Origin: Holophagae bacterium
GTDB taxonomy: Bacteria > Acidobacteriota > Holophagae > Acanthopleuribacterales > Acanthopleuribacteraceae
Direction of reading: 5' to 3'
Assembly: GCA_029263455.1 (NCBI GenBank)
Contig: JAJCXM010000022.1
Span: 186,001-250,000, forward strand
DNA: 64,000 nucleotides
In this document: one piece after another, positions 19,321 to 54,589 of the stretch
Numbering within the stretch: position 1 is the first letter of the stretch
Layout: every line of letters begins with the position of its first letter
Notes under the pieces: generated by a model
Told to the model about the DNA's origin: nothing
The model's input: only the letters and a program-made list of their open reading frames with translations
The model's database searches: none
Program-made: the position numbers and the translations under genes

Positions 19321-19394
19321 CGTGAACGCAAGGTGCATTTTTTGGATTCGGCCTTAAGACTCTTGTTATCAAGCATATAGATGCGTATGTGGAG

Positions 19395-19411
19395 TTGGTA
19401 TCACGCTTGCT
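19395..19411 (+). promoter_or_regulatory. Sigma-54 (-24/-12) promoter of the psp operon
   Basis: TTGGTATC followed after four bases by TTGCT, giving GG at 19397-19398 and GC at 19409-19410 with exactly 10 bases between, the defining sigma-54 spacing. It is 36 bases upstream of the pspA start, leaving a short leader that contains the GGAGGT RBS. Confidence 0.85.
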
Positions 19412-19446
19412 CAAGTACAGGGCGACATACAAAACAGGAGGTAATT

Positions 19447-20115
19447 ATGGGTGTCATTTCAAGAATATCCGATATTGTTAACGCGAATGTGAATGCCGTA
19501 TTAGATCGTGCAGAAGATCCAGAGAAAATGGTGCGCCTCATCATTGCCGAGATGGAAGATACGCTGATTGAGATTAAGTCATCATCAGCCGAGGTCGTTG
19601 CAGACCGAGTGCGCATTGAGCGAGAATTGAGTCATAGTCAGCGCCAGTTTGAACAATGGAATCGTAAAGCTGAGCTCGCGTTGAGCAAGGGCCATGAGGA
19701 CCTCGCGAAAGAGGCTTTGGCGCAAGGCTTAAGTTGCCGCGAACGCAGTGATGCGCTGCAACAAAGATTAACTGAGTTACAAGCGATTGCTTCGCAATAC
19801 TTGGATGATATCGGCCGATTAGAAGATAAGTTGCGGCTGGCCCAACAGCGACAACGATTGATGGTTGCCAAACATGTCAGTCTCCTTAATCGCAAAAAGG
19901 TTGAAGAACGCATATACAAAGTGAATACAACAGGTGCACTGGCTCGTTTCGAACGCTATGAAGGCCGGATGGATCGACTGCATGCTGAGACAGAAATACT
20001 CGCTCAATCTAATCAGACGTTAGATCAGAAATTCCGTAGCCTTGAACATGAAGGTGAATTGCAGCGTGAGTTTGAGGCTCTACAGGAGAAAGTCGCCGCG
20101 ACCGCAAAATCTTAA
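19447..20115 (+). CDS. pspA: Phage shock protein A, membrane-stress effector
   Basis: 222-aa PspA/IM30 homologue starting at ATG 19447 after CAGGAGGT; the longer frame from 19381 runs through the promoter and is rejected. MGVISRISDIVNANVNAVLD is the amphipathic membrane-binding helix, then DPEKMVRLIIAEMEDTLIEI, the hallmark second helix. The rest is a long coiled coil. The protein binds stressed inner membrane as large oligomers and, when free, inhibits PspF. First gene of a four-gene operon under the sigma-54 promoter. Confidence 0.95.
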   Translation: MGVISRISDIVNANVNAVLDRAEDPEKMVRLIIAEMEDTLIEIKSSSAEVVADRVRIERELSHSQRQFEQWNRKAELALSKGHEDLAKEALAQGLSCRERSDALQQRLTELQAIASQYLDDIGRLEDKLRLAQQRQRLMVAKHVSLLNRKKVEERIYKVNTTGALARFERYEGRMDRLHAETEILAQSNQTLDQKFRSLEHEGELQREFEALQEKVAATAKS

Positions 20116-20131
20116 GGTGATGGGAGAAGAT

Positions 20132-20368
20132 ATGATGCAATTGATGGTTCTCATGATCGTTTTCGGCACGCCTGTCGCGATTGTGGCCTTGGTTCTGCAC
20201 TACCGATTAATGAAATTGAGATTGTCGCAAGGAATGCACGTGGTCGAGGCAAGCGATGTCCAGGATTCAAACCTGAATCTGGATTCGAAAGCTCAACAAA
20301 TGCTGCACCGCATCATTAACCTGGAAGAAATTTTGCGATGTGAAGGAGATAGAGATGTCATTGGCTAA
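20132..20368 (+). CDS. pspB: PspB-like membrane protein, 78 aa
   Basis: The ATG at 20132 follows GGGAGAAG; a longer frame beginning inside pspA is rejected. One N-terminal transmembrane helix (MVLMIVFGTPVAIVALVLHY) is followed by a cytoplasmic helix with LDSKAQQMLHRIINLEEIL, matching PspB, whose tail reads as leucine-zipper-like heptads ending in LExIL. PspB and PspC relay membrane stress to PspA-PspF. It lies between pspA and a small membrane gene, with which it overlaps by 14 bases. Confidence 0.82.
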   Translation: MMQLMVLMIVFGTPVAIVALVLHYRLMKLRLSQGMHVVEASDVQDSNLNLDSKAQQMLHRIINLEEILRCEGDRDVIG

Positions 20369-20660
20369 GTTAATCTATGTAACAGGTTTTGTGATCATCA
20401 GTCTCATCGTGCTTTGGGCACTGGGATTTGCCGTCAAGTTATTGTCGCTGGTTTTTGCGCTAGTGAGCATACCTTTCACGGTTGTGGGTCACTTGTTTGG
20501 TGCAAATTTCGTGTGGCTATTATGCCTCGTCGGATTGGCGTGGTGGTTCTTTCGCAAACGGGGAGTACGACCTGTGTCATCGAGCCTGAAATACGAAATG
20601 ACGTCGTTAGAATCACGATTGGATCGGCTTAATCGCTCGTTGGCTTCGCGAAGATATTGA
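20355..20660 (+). CDS. Small psp-operon membrane protein, 101 aa
   Basis: Starts at ATG 20355 with AGGAG seven bases before it, inside the end of the PspB-like gene. Two transmembrane helices (about residues 7-40 and 49-66), an RKR end to the second and a cytoplasmic coiled tail (YEMTSLESRLDRLNRSLASR). It occupies the place held by other small psp genes but does not match PspD or PspG closely. Role in sensing or anchoring PspA is inferred from context. Confidence 0.75.
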   Translation: MSLAKLIYVTGFVIISLIVLWALGFAVKLLSLVFALVSIPFTVVGHLFGANFVWLLCLVGLAWWFFRKRGVRPVSSSLKYEMTSLESRLDRLNRSLASRRY

Positions 20661-20681
20661 GTAAGGAGAGATCAAAAACAA

Positions 20682-21131
20682 ATGCGAAACGTATACTTAG
20701 ATTATTCCACTGCAGATTTGGGGGTTAACAAGATGTTTCATCGTAGGTCATCAACTTCACGTAAAGTTTACCGTTCGTCGTCGGACAAAGTGTTGGGCGG
20801 TGTGATTGGTGGACTTGCGGCGTACTTCGATGTTTCTTCGTTCTGGCTGCGGGTGGCATTTTTGGTGCTGCAATTCACGTTCATCCCGGTTCTAGTGATC
20901 GCCTACGGCGTTGCCTTTTTTATCATGCCAAAGGGTCCTCATTTAAGTCGACAAGAAGATCATGCTGTCGCCAGTCATAAGAAGACATATCCTGTTGAAC
21001 CAGCGCCCGTTGGCGCGATGAACGAGCTGACCAAACAATACGATCAAATAGAAGATAAAATCCGACGACTTGAGGACTATGTGACCTCACGTGAGTTTGC
21101 GCTCAGTCGAAAATTTGAGGAGTTGACTTAG
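20682..21131 (+). CDS. pspC: Phage shock protein C
   Basis: 149 aa with a PspC domain at about 34-95: RSSSDKVLGGVIGGLAAYFD, then SFWLRVAFLVL and a hydrophobic segment ending GVAFFIMPK. The C-terminal 40 residues form a coiled coil (NELTKQYDQIEDKIRRLEDY) as in PspC, which contacts PspB and PspA. An alternative start at 20733 would remove a poorly conserved N-terminus; AAGGAG lies about 13 bases before 20682, which is a little far. Last gene of the psp operon; its stop overlaps the convergent S41-like gene by 4 bases. Confidence 0.9.
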   Translation: MRNVYLDYSTADLGVNKMFHRRSSTSRKVYRSSSDKVLGGVIGGLAAYFDVSSFWLRVAFLVLQFTFIPVLVIAYGVAFFIMPKGPHLSRQEDHAVASHKKTYPVEPAPVGAMNELTKQYDQIEDKIRRLEDYVTSREFALSRKFEELT

Positions 21132-25668: not shown

Positions 25669-27819
25669 TCAGCCCGTTTTAGGCAACTCATCGACGGCGG
25701 CCACAGCTTTGGGCAACGAGGCAACAACTAACGTAAGGTCGTCGTTCTGTTCACCCGTTGACACAAACTTCCGGACATCTGCTAATACGGCGTCGCGGAT
25801 ATCTTCTGATCCCAACTCACTGAAACTAATAAGGACATCGCGTAGCCGATCTAAGCCATAAAGTTCGCCTTGGTTGGTCATTTCGTCAAGGCCATCTGTA
25901 TATAGAATAATTTTATCGTCCGGTTTGAGCGTAAAAACAACGGGCTTAATAATCTTCCCAAACACCGAGTTTTTTGCCAGCCCAATGGCCATGCCTGGTG
26001 GGAGTACGTCGTGGCATTTGCCCTGGCTTATGTGAAGCGCCGGGCAGTGGCCGGCACGGGCGAGGGTTGCAATCCCTCGTTGACCATCAAGCAGTAAATA
26101 AGCTGCAGAAATAAACACATTAGCACTTAGCGCAGGGTATAAGATTTCGTTTATGGCCAACATCAACTGGCGCGGATCATCCCAAAGATGACGCAATGCA
26201 ATTAAGACACCTTTAAGTTCAGCCATATAGAAGGCCGCGGATGTGCCTTTGCCGGAAACATCGGCAATGAAGATTCCAACGCGACCTGCTGCTACCTCAA
26301 AAACATCGTAATAGTCGCCTCCCACTTGCTTGGCGGGAATACAAATCGCCGAAATGTGTTCGCCTGCAGGCGTATCGCGCATGTCAGGTAGCAGGCTCAT
26401 TTGGATGTCGCGTGCTATCCGCAACTCTTCTTCGTATTTCTCTTTGATGCGAACCTCTTTGAGTAAGGAGTTTATGTTAGTCGACATGGCGTTAAAGGAT
26501 CTTCCCATGGCACCAATTTGATCCTTTCCTAAGTAAGGCAATTGATAGTCAAGGTCGCCACCTGCCATCCTTTCATGGCCGTCGGCGATCGCATTGAGCG
26601 ATCGTGTGATGTAGCTGATGAGGTAAATACCAAAAACAAATGCCATAAGCTCTGCGAGAATCAAAAACAAAGTAATACTGAGGATCAGATAAAATTGAAT
26701 CTGTTTTTGGTCATTACCGAGGAAATTGCGTTCCTTAATACGACCCAAACTGGCTAGTAGTGAACTGGGCGATATTTCGAAAGTCATCGTGGCTGTCGGT
26801 CGATAAATTCCGCTGGACCAATCTAGCGCGCGTAGCTCCCAGGTGCTGCTCAACGGCTTGAACAGCCAACGTAAGAACCATGAACTTCCTGGGCTGTCTG
26901 TCCGGTAACTCCAATACCCTCCGTTGTGGTCCAAGCTGACATTGATGTCCATGGTATCCCGTATATGTTCCAGGAACTGAGTGTCGATGGGTACGGTGGC
27001 CACGGCGACTGTTCTTGAAGTTTCGTCAAAGGGACGCACGCTATAGTGCTGAATAAAGAGCCGATCTTGCCGCTCGACGATGGCCAAATGATCATCGCCC
27101 TTAAACCAATGTGGGAATATGGCTTGGTATTCGTCGTCAGGTAGCGTTTTGAATCCTGTCAAGTTAGAGAGACTCTTGTCCCGCAGTGTTTCGCAGTACA
27201 TACACATAAACAGATTTGACGCATTGAAATCCGAAAGAAAATAGACGTCGACGAGAAGGTCACTATAGGAATGGCGACTTAATTCTGAGCGGCGTGTTTC
27301 GTCGATAATATTGGACAATTCCAGTTCCACATTAAAGTTGGCGTCGCCTACGGACAACAACTCAAGTGTCTGGTCTTGTACGGATGTCGAATACTTAACC
27401 AAATCCGCAGACAACATAATCATCATATTCTCAACGGTATTGGCACTGGTTATGCCAAACAATGCACGAATTCCAAGGGCGAAAATTAAGACAGTACAGG
27501 CAAGTGGGATAAACGCGAAGATTAAATAGGACAAAATGAGCTTGCGGTTCAGGTAGTAGCGGGCCCATTGTCGCAATGCGAAGGCCAGCGATGCCGTGAA
27601 TAGTAAAGCCAGACAAATGGCCAGTGCTCCGTTGACGGTAATGTCATAACGCACTTCCGGGACTTGGCCGGCCTGTAGCTGAATAAATTGATGGCTGAGG
27701 AAGTCTTGGCCTTGAAAACCGAAGGCATAGCGGAACAGGAAATAGAAGGAAAAGACGGTTAGGCTTGGCCAAAACCAGCTTCGCCATTGTTTGGCAGCTT
27801 GGACCAATCGGGAACTCAC
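25669..27819 (-). CDS. Membrane SpoIIE/RsbU-type protein phosphatase, 716 aa
   Basis: Two N-terminal hydrophobic stretches (residues 15-30 and 65-130), an extracytoplasmic sensory region of about 200 residues, a further transmembrane helix near 375-405, a HAMP linker (SLNAIADGHERMAGGDLDYQ) and a PP2C-SpoIIE domain. The metal-binding motifs are present: VGGDYYDVFE, GIFIADVSGKGTSAAFYMA and ILYTDGLDEM. Such phosphatases dephosphorylate STAS-domain anti-sigma antagonists. The only STAS protein seen here is at 54263-54589. The start overlaps the upstream AP-superfamily gene by 4 bases, so it is co-made with that protein and a Ser/Thr kinase. Confidence 0.9.
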   Translation of the reverse strand: MSSRLVQAAKQWRSWFWPSLTVFSFYFLFRYAFGFQGQDFLSHQFIQLQAGQVPEVRYDITVNGALAICLALLFTASLAFALRQWARYYLNRKLILSYLIFAFIPLACTVLIFALGIRALFGITSANTVENMMIMLSADLVKYSTSVQDQTLELLSVGDANFNVELELSNIIDETRRSELSRHSYSDLLVDVYFLSDFNASNLFMCMYCETLRDKSLSNLTGFKTLPDDEYQAIFPHWFKGDDHLAIVERQDRLFIQHYSVRPFDETSRTVAVATVPIDTQFLEHIRDTMDINVSLDHNGGYWSYRTDSPGSSWFLRWLFKPLSSTWELRALDWSSGIYRPTATMTFEISPSSLLASLGRIKERNFLGNDQKQIQFYLILSITLFLILAELMAFVFGIYLISYITRSLNAIADGHERMAGGDLDYQLPYLGKDQIGAMGRSFNAMSTNINSLLKEVRIKEKYEEELRIARDIQMSLLPDMRDTPAGEHISAICIPAKQVGGDYYDVFEVAAGRVGIFIADVSGKGTSAAFYMAELKGVLIALRHLWDDPRQLMLAINEILYPALSANVFISAAYLLLDGQRGIATLARAGHCPALHISQGKCHDVLPPGMAIGLAKNSVFGKIIKPVVFTLKPDDKIILYTDGLDEMTNQGELYGLDRLRDVLISFSELGSEDIRDAVLADVRKFVSTGEQNDDLTLVVASLPKAVAAVDELPKTG

Positions 27820-29423
27820 TTTACGTAACCCAAAGACCGGAGTTGTTCCAGATAGGCATCATCATTTTCGTGACGAGGTCCCCATTGCGATCGTGGACCG
27901 TAAGAAACGGCTTCCTGGGTTGGATTTGAAAGCGCAGTAATCATTTGTTTGTCCAGCGGCAATCCGTGCAGTTCAAGGGCTATCTTGGCGAAATCCGTTT
28001 CGGTTGATTGCGGCTTGAACCGTTCACGTAAGTTAGGTGATTGAATGCCTAAGCATTCAACATAACCTTCATCTAACTCAGATCGACCTGACGTCAAAAG
28101 GATGTAGATGAGACTGTCTTCGGGCATCTGGGATAGCCATGCGTGGATCAATTTTGCCCTCTTTTTAGGCAGGTCGTCGATTGCCAGATGAGGCATTTCT
28201 GGCTGATTTGCTAACACGTCGGACAAAGGGAAATAGGCAAGGGTCAGATTGAACTCGTCTCCTAGCGTGGTCAGGTAGTGCCAGATCGCCTGTTCTCTTT
28301 GAACCACAGCTAAGACATCCTCAGAGCCTTCTTCAAGCCAGTTTTCTTGAATACTGACCGCAGGGATGCCGGTGCAGTAAGGATATTTTTGATGTTGTAA
28401 ATCCCATCGCTCCGAAAGTACCCTGCCCGATTGGCTGGAAGCAGGAAATGTATGCCAGAACCCAAAAATGTTGGTCTTTAGGCCCTGCTCGTCGAGAATT
28501 TCCCATACGTATTTGGTTTGACGAGTCGTTCGCGTGGTTGGTTTAGACAGGCCCACTTTGCTCGCAAACCAAATGACAGGTGCGAGAATTGCATCGTGCT
28601 GATTAAGTGCGTGGTTAAAACCAACAATCTCGTGTGAAATGAGAGACGTCATTTGGTTCCTAATACCGGTACCAAAGCGAGTCCAGAATTGGCTTATGTC
28701 ACTTTCATCAGCTTTGAATTCGGTTCTTGGCCAACTGGGTAAGAGATTAGCAAAGCCTTCCATCTGCTCAGAAGGCATGTCGAAGCCAAGGACAATTAAC
28801 GGTGGTCCATCGGCAATGGCACCGAAAGACTTTACTGGGCTTGGCCAAAAATAATATGTCCCCAAAACGATGCAGGCCATCAACCACATCCAAAACTTAT
28901 GCCGCTTGTGTTTAGGAGGACGGTGACCGAACCAGTAGAGTCGGCTTATGATCAGCAAATGAAAAGCCTCTGCCCAAGTAAGAGCAGCTAAAGCAAAAAC
29001 GCCGAGATATGTCAGTCGGCTTAAAGCGCTGGCTTGGTAAAGATTAGACCTAAGCCAGATTGAAATCATGATGAAGACGAGGATGGCTATGGGCAGTCTC
29101 AGATAACTTAGAAAAGGACCGGAACGAATGAGATCGATGAGCATTGTGGAGGAAAGTGAGACAGCGACAAAAATATCCATAACCAAGGTGATAATCAAAG
29201 TCGCCAAGGCGTAAACCACACTGATCTTAAACAGGTCCGTGCCGCCTGCCGTACAAACAAGTGCAGACATGGTGCCCATAATCAAGCCAAGAGCGGCTCC
29301 GGCAGCTAATAGATGTCGCATATGGCTTCGCCATCCCGGCAGAGCCTGTCCCCAGATCCAATGTACGACGGGGCTGTTTAGATAGCCTAGGTCGCGAAGC
29401 TGTGTTCGGTAATCAGGTGCCAT
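27816..29423 (-). CDS. Membrane-anchored alkaline-phosphatase-superfamily protein, altered site, 535 aa
   Basis: Five or so transmembrane helices (about residues 35-200) precede a phosphodiesterase/sulfatase-like domain. PPLIVLGFDMPSEQ supplies the first metal Asp, FWTRFGTGI the Thr nucleophile region, and GLKTNIFGFWHTFPA and ALELHGLPLDKQM are family landmarks. The later metal ligands normally read SDHG; here the place reads LLTSGRSELD, lacking Asp and His. Both ends carry the same motif: LRDLGYL at residues 9-15 and LRSLGYV at the C-terminus, where the family normally has it only once. It may be a non-catalytic or unusual enzyme. It lies between a kinase gene (2-base gap) and a phosphatase gene (4-base overlap). 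Confidence 0.72.
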   Translation of the reverse strand: MAPDYRTQLRDLGYLNSPVVHWIWGQALPGWRSHMRHLLAAGAALGLIMGTMSALVCTAGGTDLFKISVVYALATLIITLVMDIFVAVSLSSTMLIDLIRSGPFLSYLRLPIAILVFIMISIWLRSNLYQASALSRLTYLGVFALAALTWAEAFHLLIISRLYWFGHRPPKHKRHKFWMWLMACIVLGTYYFWPSPVKSFGAIADGPPLIVLGFDMPSEQMEGFANLLPSWPRTEFKADESDISQFWTRFGTGIRNQMTSLISHEIVGFNHALNQHDAILAPVIWFASKVGLSKPTTRTTRQTKYVWEILDEQGLKTNIFGFWHTFPASSQSGRVLSERWDLQHQKYPYCTGIPAVSIQENWLEEGSEDVLAVVQREQAIWHYLTTLGDEFNLTLAYFPLSDVLANQPEMPHLAIDDLPKKRAKLIHAWLSQMPEDSLIYILLTSGRSELDEGYVECLGIQSPNLRERFKPQSTETDFAKIALELHGLPLDKQMITALSNPTQEAVSYGPRSQWGPRHENDDAYLEQLRSLGYVK

Positions 29424-29424
29424 A

Positions 29425-30420
29425 TCAACGTTGAGTCACATTACAGTGAGGGCAGACGTTTGTTCGTTTCGAAATAGGACGGCCACAGTTCCAGCAGAAC
29501 AAGCTTCCGCTTCGCGTCATTCTTTTTGGGGCTTGTTTTGGCATCGCTAGTTCGCTGCTACCAAGCGAGCGAACTTCACCTGTGTTCAGGTTCACGTCAA
29601 GCTGGCTTCCAGTGCTTTCTCCCCGGTCACGAAGCTGCTCGATATGTCCTTTGAGGTCAGAGGCGGATTGGTAACGAGCCTTGGCGTTGGGGTCCATTGC
29701 TCGTAATATAAGTTGACTCACATTGAGCGGTATCTTTGGGTTGTGATGATGTGGTGGTTTGACGTTGCCTTCGCGCGCCATTTGAGCGACACGTTGCGGG
29801 TTGGGATCAAAGAATGGCAATCTTCCGGTTAGGCATTCGTACATGAGAATCCCCATCGAGTAAATATCCGATTGGCGGACGGCTCGCCCCGAGAAATGTT
29901 CTGGCGCCATGTAGGGCGGCGATCCGATTCTGGTTGAAGCATATTGATCATCGGCCAGAAATCGCGACGTTCCGAAATCGGTCACCTTTACGCGTAAACT
30001 TTTGTCTATCAACACATTTGCTGGGCGAATATCTCGATGGATGACTTTCATACGGTGGGCGTAATCCAGGGCCTCACATATATCTGCAAACCAAGACAAA
30101 GCTTGTTTGATCTCCACTCGCTTGTGTGTTCGCAAATATTGTTCAAGCGAACTACCGTCGACATATTCCATAACAATGTAAAAAACATCGTTGGTCTTTT
30201 CCGCCGTGATGACGGTGACTATGTTTGGGTGGTTTAGAGCAGCCAGTAAACGTGGTTCTTTGAGTAACTTTTCTACATCCTCACCCTGTTTATGAGGAAT
30301 CTTGATTGCGACTTTCTTGTCTATCCACGTATCAGCCGCTAAGTAAACGGCACCGAACCCGCCGCTCCCGATAGAGTCAATGACTTTATATTTGCCTATT
30401 TGTTGGCCTTTGAACAGCAT
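29425..30420 (-). CDS. Ser/Thr protein kinase with C-terminal zinc ribbon, 331 aa
   Basis: Complete kinase domain at 11-275: Gly loop IGSGGFGAVYLA, Lys40, HRDIRPAN at 128, DFG at 148, then GSPPYMAPEH. The tail has a CxxC...CxxC zinc ribbon (Cys309, 312, 323, 326: FCWNCG and VCPHCN), often used as an interaction module. No transmembrane segment, so it is cytoplasmic, unlike PASTA kinases. It is first in an operon with the AP-superfamily protein and the SpoIIE phosphatase, a kinase and phosphatase arrangement that suggests one signalling circuit. Confidence 0.92.
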   Translation of the reverse strand: MLFKGQQIGKYKVIDSIGSGGFGAVYLAADTWIDKKVAIKIPHKQGEDVEKLLKEPRLLAALNHPNIVTVITAEKTNDVFYIVMEYVDGSSLEQYLRTHKRVEIKQALSWFADICEALDYAHRMKVIHRDIRPANVLIDKSLRVKVTDFGTSRFLADDQYASTRIGSPPYMAPEHFSGRAVRQSDIYSMGILMYECLTGRLPFFDPNPQRVAQMAREGNVKPPHHHNPKIPLNVSQLILRAMDPNAKARYQSASDLKGHIEQLRDRGESTGSQLDVNLNTGEVRSLGSSELAMPKQAPKRMTRSGSLFCWNCGRPISKRTNVCPHCNVTQR

Positions 30421-54262: not shown

Positions 54263-54589
54263 TTACGCGGATTCGTGACTGCTGCGTAGACCGAAGTATT
54301 CGTCTAAGTTGTGACGCGCAAAGTAACGATAAATGTCGGGCTGCATGTTTGTTAAGCGAAGCTGGCCCTTAAATTTACCGATCGAATTCTTTGTAGACAC
54401 GAATAGGCTGACGCCTGATGCGTCGATGGTGCGTAACTGGCTCAAGTCTAGCACCAGCGCGCTAATCTCTTCACGGGTCATTGCCTTGAAAAAAGACTCT
54501 CTTAATCGAGCGATGTCTTCTAGACGAAGGTCGCCAACTAGATGAAAAACAATTTCAGGTGGATTGCACTCGTTGGTGACATTCAACAT
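54263..54589 (-). CDS. STAS-domain protein (anti-sigma antagonist type), 108 aa
   Basis: Single STAS domain: ALVLDLSQLRTIDASGVSLF holds the phosphorylatable Ser in DASG. Such proteins bind anti-sigma kinases when dephosphorylated, usually by RsbU/SpoIIE phosphatases like the one at 25669-27819. No anti-sigma kinase (HATPase) is next to it. C-terminal half (LRLTNMQPDIYRYFARHNLD) is the usual helical cap. Confidence 0.88.
   Translation of the reverse strand: MLNVTNECNPPEIVFHLVGDLRLEDIARLRESFFKAMTREEISALVLDLSQLRTIDASGVSLFVSTKNSIGKFKGQLRLTNMQPDIYRYFARHNLDEYFGLRSSHESA

Follow-up and report, generated by a model that had tools for sequence, protein, structure and literature searches.

A Ser/Thr kinase, a membrane pseudo-alkaline-phosphatase and a SpoIIE sensor phosphatase encoded together in the Acanthopleuribacteraceae, a possible phospho-switch

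Our analysis showed that three tightly spaced genes on the minus strand of a Holophagae bacterium contig encode, in this order, a Ser/Thr kinase (29425-30420), a membrane protein resembling alkaline phosphatases (AP; 27816-29423) and a HAMP-SpoIIE phosphatase (25669-27819). The positions are those of the window, the whole stretch of 64,000 nucleotides that was analysed (JAJCXM010000022.1, 186,001 to 250,000). The motifs of the kinase and the phosphatase are intact, the active site of the AP-like protein is lost, and the kinase and SpoIIE genes adjoin in all seven sampled genomes of the family, three of which have the complete trio. We tentatively propose, at somewhat less than an even chance, that the operon encodes a Ser/Thr phospho-switch in which the Cache-HAMP-SpoIIE protein is the eraser and the dead enzyme, where present, a receptor comparable to YejM.

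The operon and its conservation in the family

The kinase stop and the AP start are separated by a single base (TGA-T-ATG), and the AP and SpoIIE genes overlap by four bases (GTGA). An earlier sequence-only reading of this DNA had described the genes as nearly contiguous; it was right about the overlap and gave the first gap as two bases. Upstream on the same strand lie pyrE and then groEL (the latter recognised by eye), and downstream hsp33, an SsuABC-like transporter and, by eye, an S41-like peptidase. Promoter and terminator scans gave matches at chance level only. A PspA/PspC-like gene cluster, also recognised by eye, is encoded on the other strand, close to where the run of genes ends downstream (19381-21131).

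Joint conservation of the genes is borne out for the kinase-SpoIIE pair in 7/7 family genomes and for the trio in three, belonging to two genera, while the AP gene is missing in four. The family kinases are 57-82% identical, the next-best paralogues reaching 40% or less. In a member of the same genus (Acidobacteria isolate HKST-UBA04, JAGQSC010000029.1) the entire neighbourhood is kept, and a PspA/PspC-like cluster is found there too. In the other genus (isolate MO_135.B14, JASJCB010000146.1) the trio is kept, its surroundings differ and the SpoIIE gene runs off the contig. Spacing across the carriers consists of gaps of 1-2 bases plus either a 4-base overlap or a 4-base gap, and the AP proteins of the two genera are 27-29% identical.

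The remaining genomes (G002, G003, G005 and G006) have no AP gene between kinase and SpoIIE, and a narrow AP profile found no match anywhere in them. The kinase-SpoIIE gap is 26 bp in G002 and a spacer of 390-580 bp in the other three. We considered a decayed AP gene in these spacers and ruled it out, as they hold no AP remnant. Spacers of this length suggest that kinase and SpoIIE may have separate promoters. All three (L100:8957-9349, L101:8743-9200 and L102:8731-9309) have in common a GGTAGATT patch close to the start of SpoIIE, where two of them also have a CTTCCGTGTCAATTCG patch; this may be such a promoter. In the kinase tree the AP-bearing genera are not sisters, which suggests that the AP gene was present in the family ancestor and lost at least twice. 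This is to be taken with care, as G002 sits on a long branch and the root of the tree is uncertain.

A family of degenerate membrane alkaline phosphatases

The middle protein (535 aa) has a membrane part (residues 31-192; 28848-29333) with five transmembrane (TM) helices in its AlphaFold2 (AF2) model, the fifth weakly hydrophobic, and five such segments are also seen in 20 relatives. An AP-fold domain, predicted to be periplasmic, follows (residues 204-535; 27819-28814). The protein has no Pfam match, and a search of solved structures by sequence gave weak iPGM matches only. Its model (pLDDT 80.6, built like that of the phosphatase sensor domain on a shallow alignment, of 21 and 7 rows, respectively) has the AP fold, superposes on NPP/ENPP structures (VIA Z about 17, rmsd 3.4-3.8 over 231-240 residues) and has the YejM periplasmic domain among its Foldseek matches. 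Together with PF01663 matches in 12 of 21 family members, this places the protein, by predicted fold, in the AP superfamily.

A scan of the genome contigs with the single protein found no relative, and a broad 19-row alignment contained no stretch conserved enough for scanning. A profile from three close relatives, searched over 396 Acidobacteriota genomes, gave many AP-superfamily matches, and in the 20 loci read a subfamily stood out whose members have five TM helices and carry LRxxLRxLGYL at the N-terminus and LRSLGYI at the C-terminus. This dual-LGY family numbers 22 proteins here, from several Acidobacteriota families, all combining the five TM helices with a degenerate AP domain. In an alignment of 21 of them, drawn from a sample of the phylum and 18-41% identical to the window protein, the invariant residues besides Met1 are L9, G13, Y14, L15, D215, W247, G253, R301, W307, W323, P399, D402, P489, L531, G532 and Y533. 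A literature search found nothing on the family, which appears to be the new part of this work: an undescribed, uncatalogued and phylum-wide group of apparently dead enzymes that may serve as cell-envelope sensors.

For the active site we aligned the protein with homologues from Acidobacteriota, the majority of them with a complete SDHG. The window protein keeps two of about seven catalytic positions, D215 and D402; it has I243 at the place of the Ser/Thr nucleophile, N406 at the histidine of D..H and TSGR (444-447) at SDHG, and the third-His loop is deleted. The loss of the SDHG ligands, pointed out in the sequence-only reading, is thus confirmed and goes further than described, and the metal site is incomplete. 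Judged by its sequence, the middle protein is a pseudoenzyme. A few distant members of the subfamily still have either a Thr close to the nucleophile position or the histidine of D..H, suggesting that decay has reached different depths. These residues, the invariance of Asp215 and Asp402, and a related claim for YejM (PMC7576196) are what would speak for an active enzyme whose metal site is unusual and reduced; with the nucleophile, SDHG and third His all missing from the window protein, and SDHG found in 0/22 subfamily proteins, we regard this as very improbable.

The N-terminal LGYL motif (LRDLGYL, residues 9-15; 29379-29399) and the C-terminal LRSLGY motif (residues 528-533; 27825-27842) agree with the earlier observation of an LGY at both ends (residues 12-15 and 531-533). 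The window and the fetched loci together give 686 distinct ORFs with a minimum length of 150 aa. Of these, 15 have the N-terminal motif, 13 of them being pseudo-AP family proteins, and 14 have the C-terminal one, every one from that family, so that the two-ended LGY exceeds chance. A positive-inside count gave N-in/C-out in 20/20 relatives scored (264 Lys/Arg inside, 90 outside); by this charge rule the topology is predicted to put the two motifs on opposite sides of the membrane, the N-terminal one in the cytosol and the C-terminal one in the periplasm. The statement that LGY is C-terminal only applies to the active AP enzymes of the phylum, which share the C-terminal LGY, but not to this phylum-wide subfamily, of which the N-terminal LGY is a particular feature. 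It had been suggested that the second LGY is a fusion or duplication remnant, and the two ends of the window protein do align over 12 residues, 7 of them identical. A remnant would decay, however, and the motif is fixed in place and sequence in 21 proteins from several families, on the other side of the membrane from its supposed source. This suggestion is largely refuted and hardly credible any more; the invariance points instead to a constrained feature of an old family.

The nearest functional analogue of the pseudo-AP, as far as architecture can tell, would be YejM/PbgA/LapC of Enterobacteriaceae, which combines five N-terminal TM helices with a periplasmic AP/sulfatase-like domain; according to published descriptions, this pseudo-hydrolase detects lipid A and controls a process in the cytosol (PMC7773988, PMC13125744). 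In YejM, Thr302 and a Mg site are reported to be kept, and enzymatic activity has also been claimed (PMC7576196). The pseudo-AP shares the five TM helices and the predicted periplasmic AP-like domain; it differs in having lost the nucleophile, in its closer fold to NPP/ENPP and the PF01663 matches of its relatives, in its two LGY ends, and in that its gene sits with kinase and SpoIIE genes, whereas YejM acts through LapB. We take the Pfam signature of YejM to be DUF3413 plus sulfatase. Neither was reported by Pfam for the window protein or any of the 21 members, and because no sequence signature is shared, YejM is proposed as a functional analogue and not as a family assignment. With the PF01663 type I phosphodiesterases of Acidobacteriota the pseudo-AP shares the fold, the WWxTxPA region and the C-terminal LGY, but these enzymes possess the nucleophile and SDHG and lack the five TM helices and the N-terminal LGYL.

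Outside the family, the relatives of the pseudo-AP have varied neighbours, away from kinase and SpoIIE, and we rejected the trio as a phylum-wide unit for this reason. In four distant Acidobacteriota (L049:8363-11218, L057:7151-9870, L061:7077-10051 and L062:7010-9879) the start of the pseudo-AP gene and the end of a polyprenyl synthase gene are about 4 bases or less apart; in another locus (L060) the distance is one gene. This adjacency hints at an isoprenoid-lipid role.

The kinase and the sensor phosphatase

The kinase (331 aa; PF00069, E 4e-57) is of the Hanks type, with the G-loop, K40, E55, HRDIRPAN, DFG and APE motifs invariant or nearly so in seven genomes; an Arg replaces the usual Lys of HRDxKPxN, and some orthologues have DLG. 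It has no TM segment and no PASTA match in Pfam. Its C-terminal zinc ribbon (LFCWNCxRPxxxRTxxCPHC; 29443-29502) gives a Zn_ribbon_3 match below the cut-off (E 1.5e-4), and Cys309, 312, 323 and 326 are invariant in the seven genomes, in agreement with the earlier description of a cytoplasmic kinase with a zinc ribbon. At a threshold of E 1e-75, orthologues were found in 88 of 93 genomes of the class, nearly always as one match each (two have a second), and in 161 of 396 sampled genomes of the phylum, including two of 1.2 Mb. Genes seen next to it outside the family encode an rsmE-like methyltransferase, a class IV aminotransferase, a PilT-like ATPase, RecX and AlaRS; no SpoIIE was seen beside it in 32 such neighbourhoods, and we dropped the idea of SpoIIE as its phylum-wide partner. 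In one family of the class (L113, L116, L117 and L119-L123) the kinase orthologue is directly followed by a protein of about 1,300-1,450 aa, with a TamB-like end by eye and no Pfam match in L117, the one scanned.

The phosphatase (716 aa) is a membrane protein with the order TM, periplasmic sensor, TM, HAMP (PF00672) and SpoIIE. The sensor domain (residues about 117-351; 26767-27471), predicted to be periplasmic, is Cache-like in its model (pLDDT 72; VIA Z 11 to LuxQ and 10-11 to KinD sensor domains). The SpoIIE (PPM) domain (residues 511-701; 25717-26289) matches PF07228 with an E of 6e-39, and its motifs GGDYYD, DVSGKG, YTDGLDE and DDLT are conserved in six complete orthologues; this domain match and the metal-binding motifs (GGDYYD, DVSGKG and DDLT) uphold the assignment as an RsbU-type sensor phosphatase. 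The sensor half has matches within the family only, and strong full-length orthologues are likewise confined to it, other matches in the class beginning at about position 315 or later. The best NCBIfam match is SiaA (E 1e-11), far below the cut-off.

The HAMP-SpoIIE architecture is that of the RsbU/SiaA sensor phosphatases, but here no RsbW or STAS gene adjoins, and a Hanks kinase gene does, in 7/7 genomes. In the family loci that were read, the surroundings of the operon contain no STAS or RsbW gene; STAS and HATPase_c_2 matches occur elsewhere in the genome, which holds six STAS proteins and two RsbW-type kinases. Since these kinases each adjoin a STAS gene on other contigs, the operon's SpoIIE lies outside a standard partner-switch cluster. 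Both RsbW-type genes are in standard-looking clusters, one of SpoIIE, RsbW-type and STAS genes (C1:25747-28287) and one of RsbW-type and STAS genes (C7:102594-103285). The nearest STAS protein is a stand-alone one about 26 kb from the operon (54266-54571), a possible distant SpoIIE target. Adjoining genes for a Hanks kinase and a PPM-fold phosphatase recall the PrkC-PrpC and Stk-Stp pairs; here, in contrast to the TM/PASTA kinase and soluble PP2C of PrkC-PrpC, a soluble zinc-ribbon kinase stands beside a membrane sensor phosphatase of the SpoIIE type that has TM segments.

A possible phospho-switch and its alternatives

The proposed switch would be a reversible Ser/Thr one located at the inner membrane, with the soluble zinc-ribbon kinase as writer and the Cache-HAMP-SpoIIE protein as an eraser under ligand control whose target would be either the kinase or a substrate common to both. 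The middle protein would perform no chemistry; a ligand from the envelope, which may be a phosphorylated lipid or an isoprenoid one, would bind in its periplasmic pocket, and the signal would travel by way of the TM bundle and of the LGYL helix conserved on the cytosolic side, as in YejM/PbgA with its dead hydrolase fold. The sequence-only reading had already raised a new phospho-signalling circuit, which remains plausible given the intact kinase and phosphatase motifs and the conservation of pair and trio; what we infer is the antagonism of kinase and phosphatase, the receptor role of the pseudo-AP and its communication with either of them. The switch is supported by a tightly spaced trio shared by two genera whose neighbourhoods otherwise differ, by the constant kinase-SpoIIE adjacency, by an AP fold that has lost its catalytic residues, by the invariant LGYL at the cytosolic end and the Cache-like sensor on the phosphatase, and by the position of this SpoIIE outside a standard partner-switch cluster. 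It is disfavoured by the restriction of the trio to three genomes, by the long spacers, with possible separate promoters, in three of the four AP-less ones, and by the different company that pseudo-AP and kinase keep outside the family.

The pseudo-AP could be a passenger envelope protein that shares transcription only, leaving kinase and SpoIIE alone as the signalling unit. The absence of its gene from 4/7 family genomes fits this, as do relatives that adjoin other genes, including the four next to polyprenyl synthase; it is harder to reconcile with a gene that occupies the same place, tight on both sides, in two diverged genera whose surroundings have changed, and we consider it possible but doubtful. 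The SpoIIE protein could instead be an RsbU-type phosphatase acting on a distant STAS anti-anti-sigma factor, with an independent kinase, so that the neighbours are not antagonists. Its SiaA/RsbU-like architecture, the six STAS proteins and the wide occurrence of the kinase without an adjoining SpoIIE are in line with this reading, which we think unlikely in view of the kinase adjacency in every family genome and the lack of STAS or RsbW genes around the operon in the loci read from the family. A broader version of the switch proposal holds that dead membrane alkaline phosphatases across the phylum are lipid or envelope receptors, their two LGY ends facing opposite sides of the inner membrane, and that one such protein has been wired into this family's kinase/SpoIIE switch; we offer it with considerable reserve.

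Acidobacteriota are rich in Ser/Thr kinases of this type, and the zinc-ribbon kinase, being single-copy and conserved in many of them, is a good first target for phosphoproteomics. If the proposed switch is true, the pseudo-AP would join YejM as the second example of a dead alkaline phosphatase fold serving as a membrane sensor, here one linked to Ser/Thr phosphorylation.
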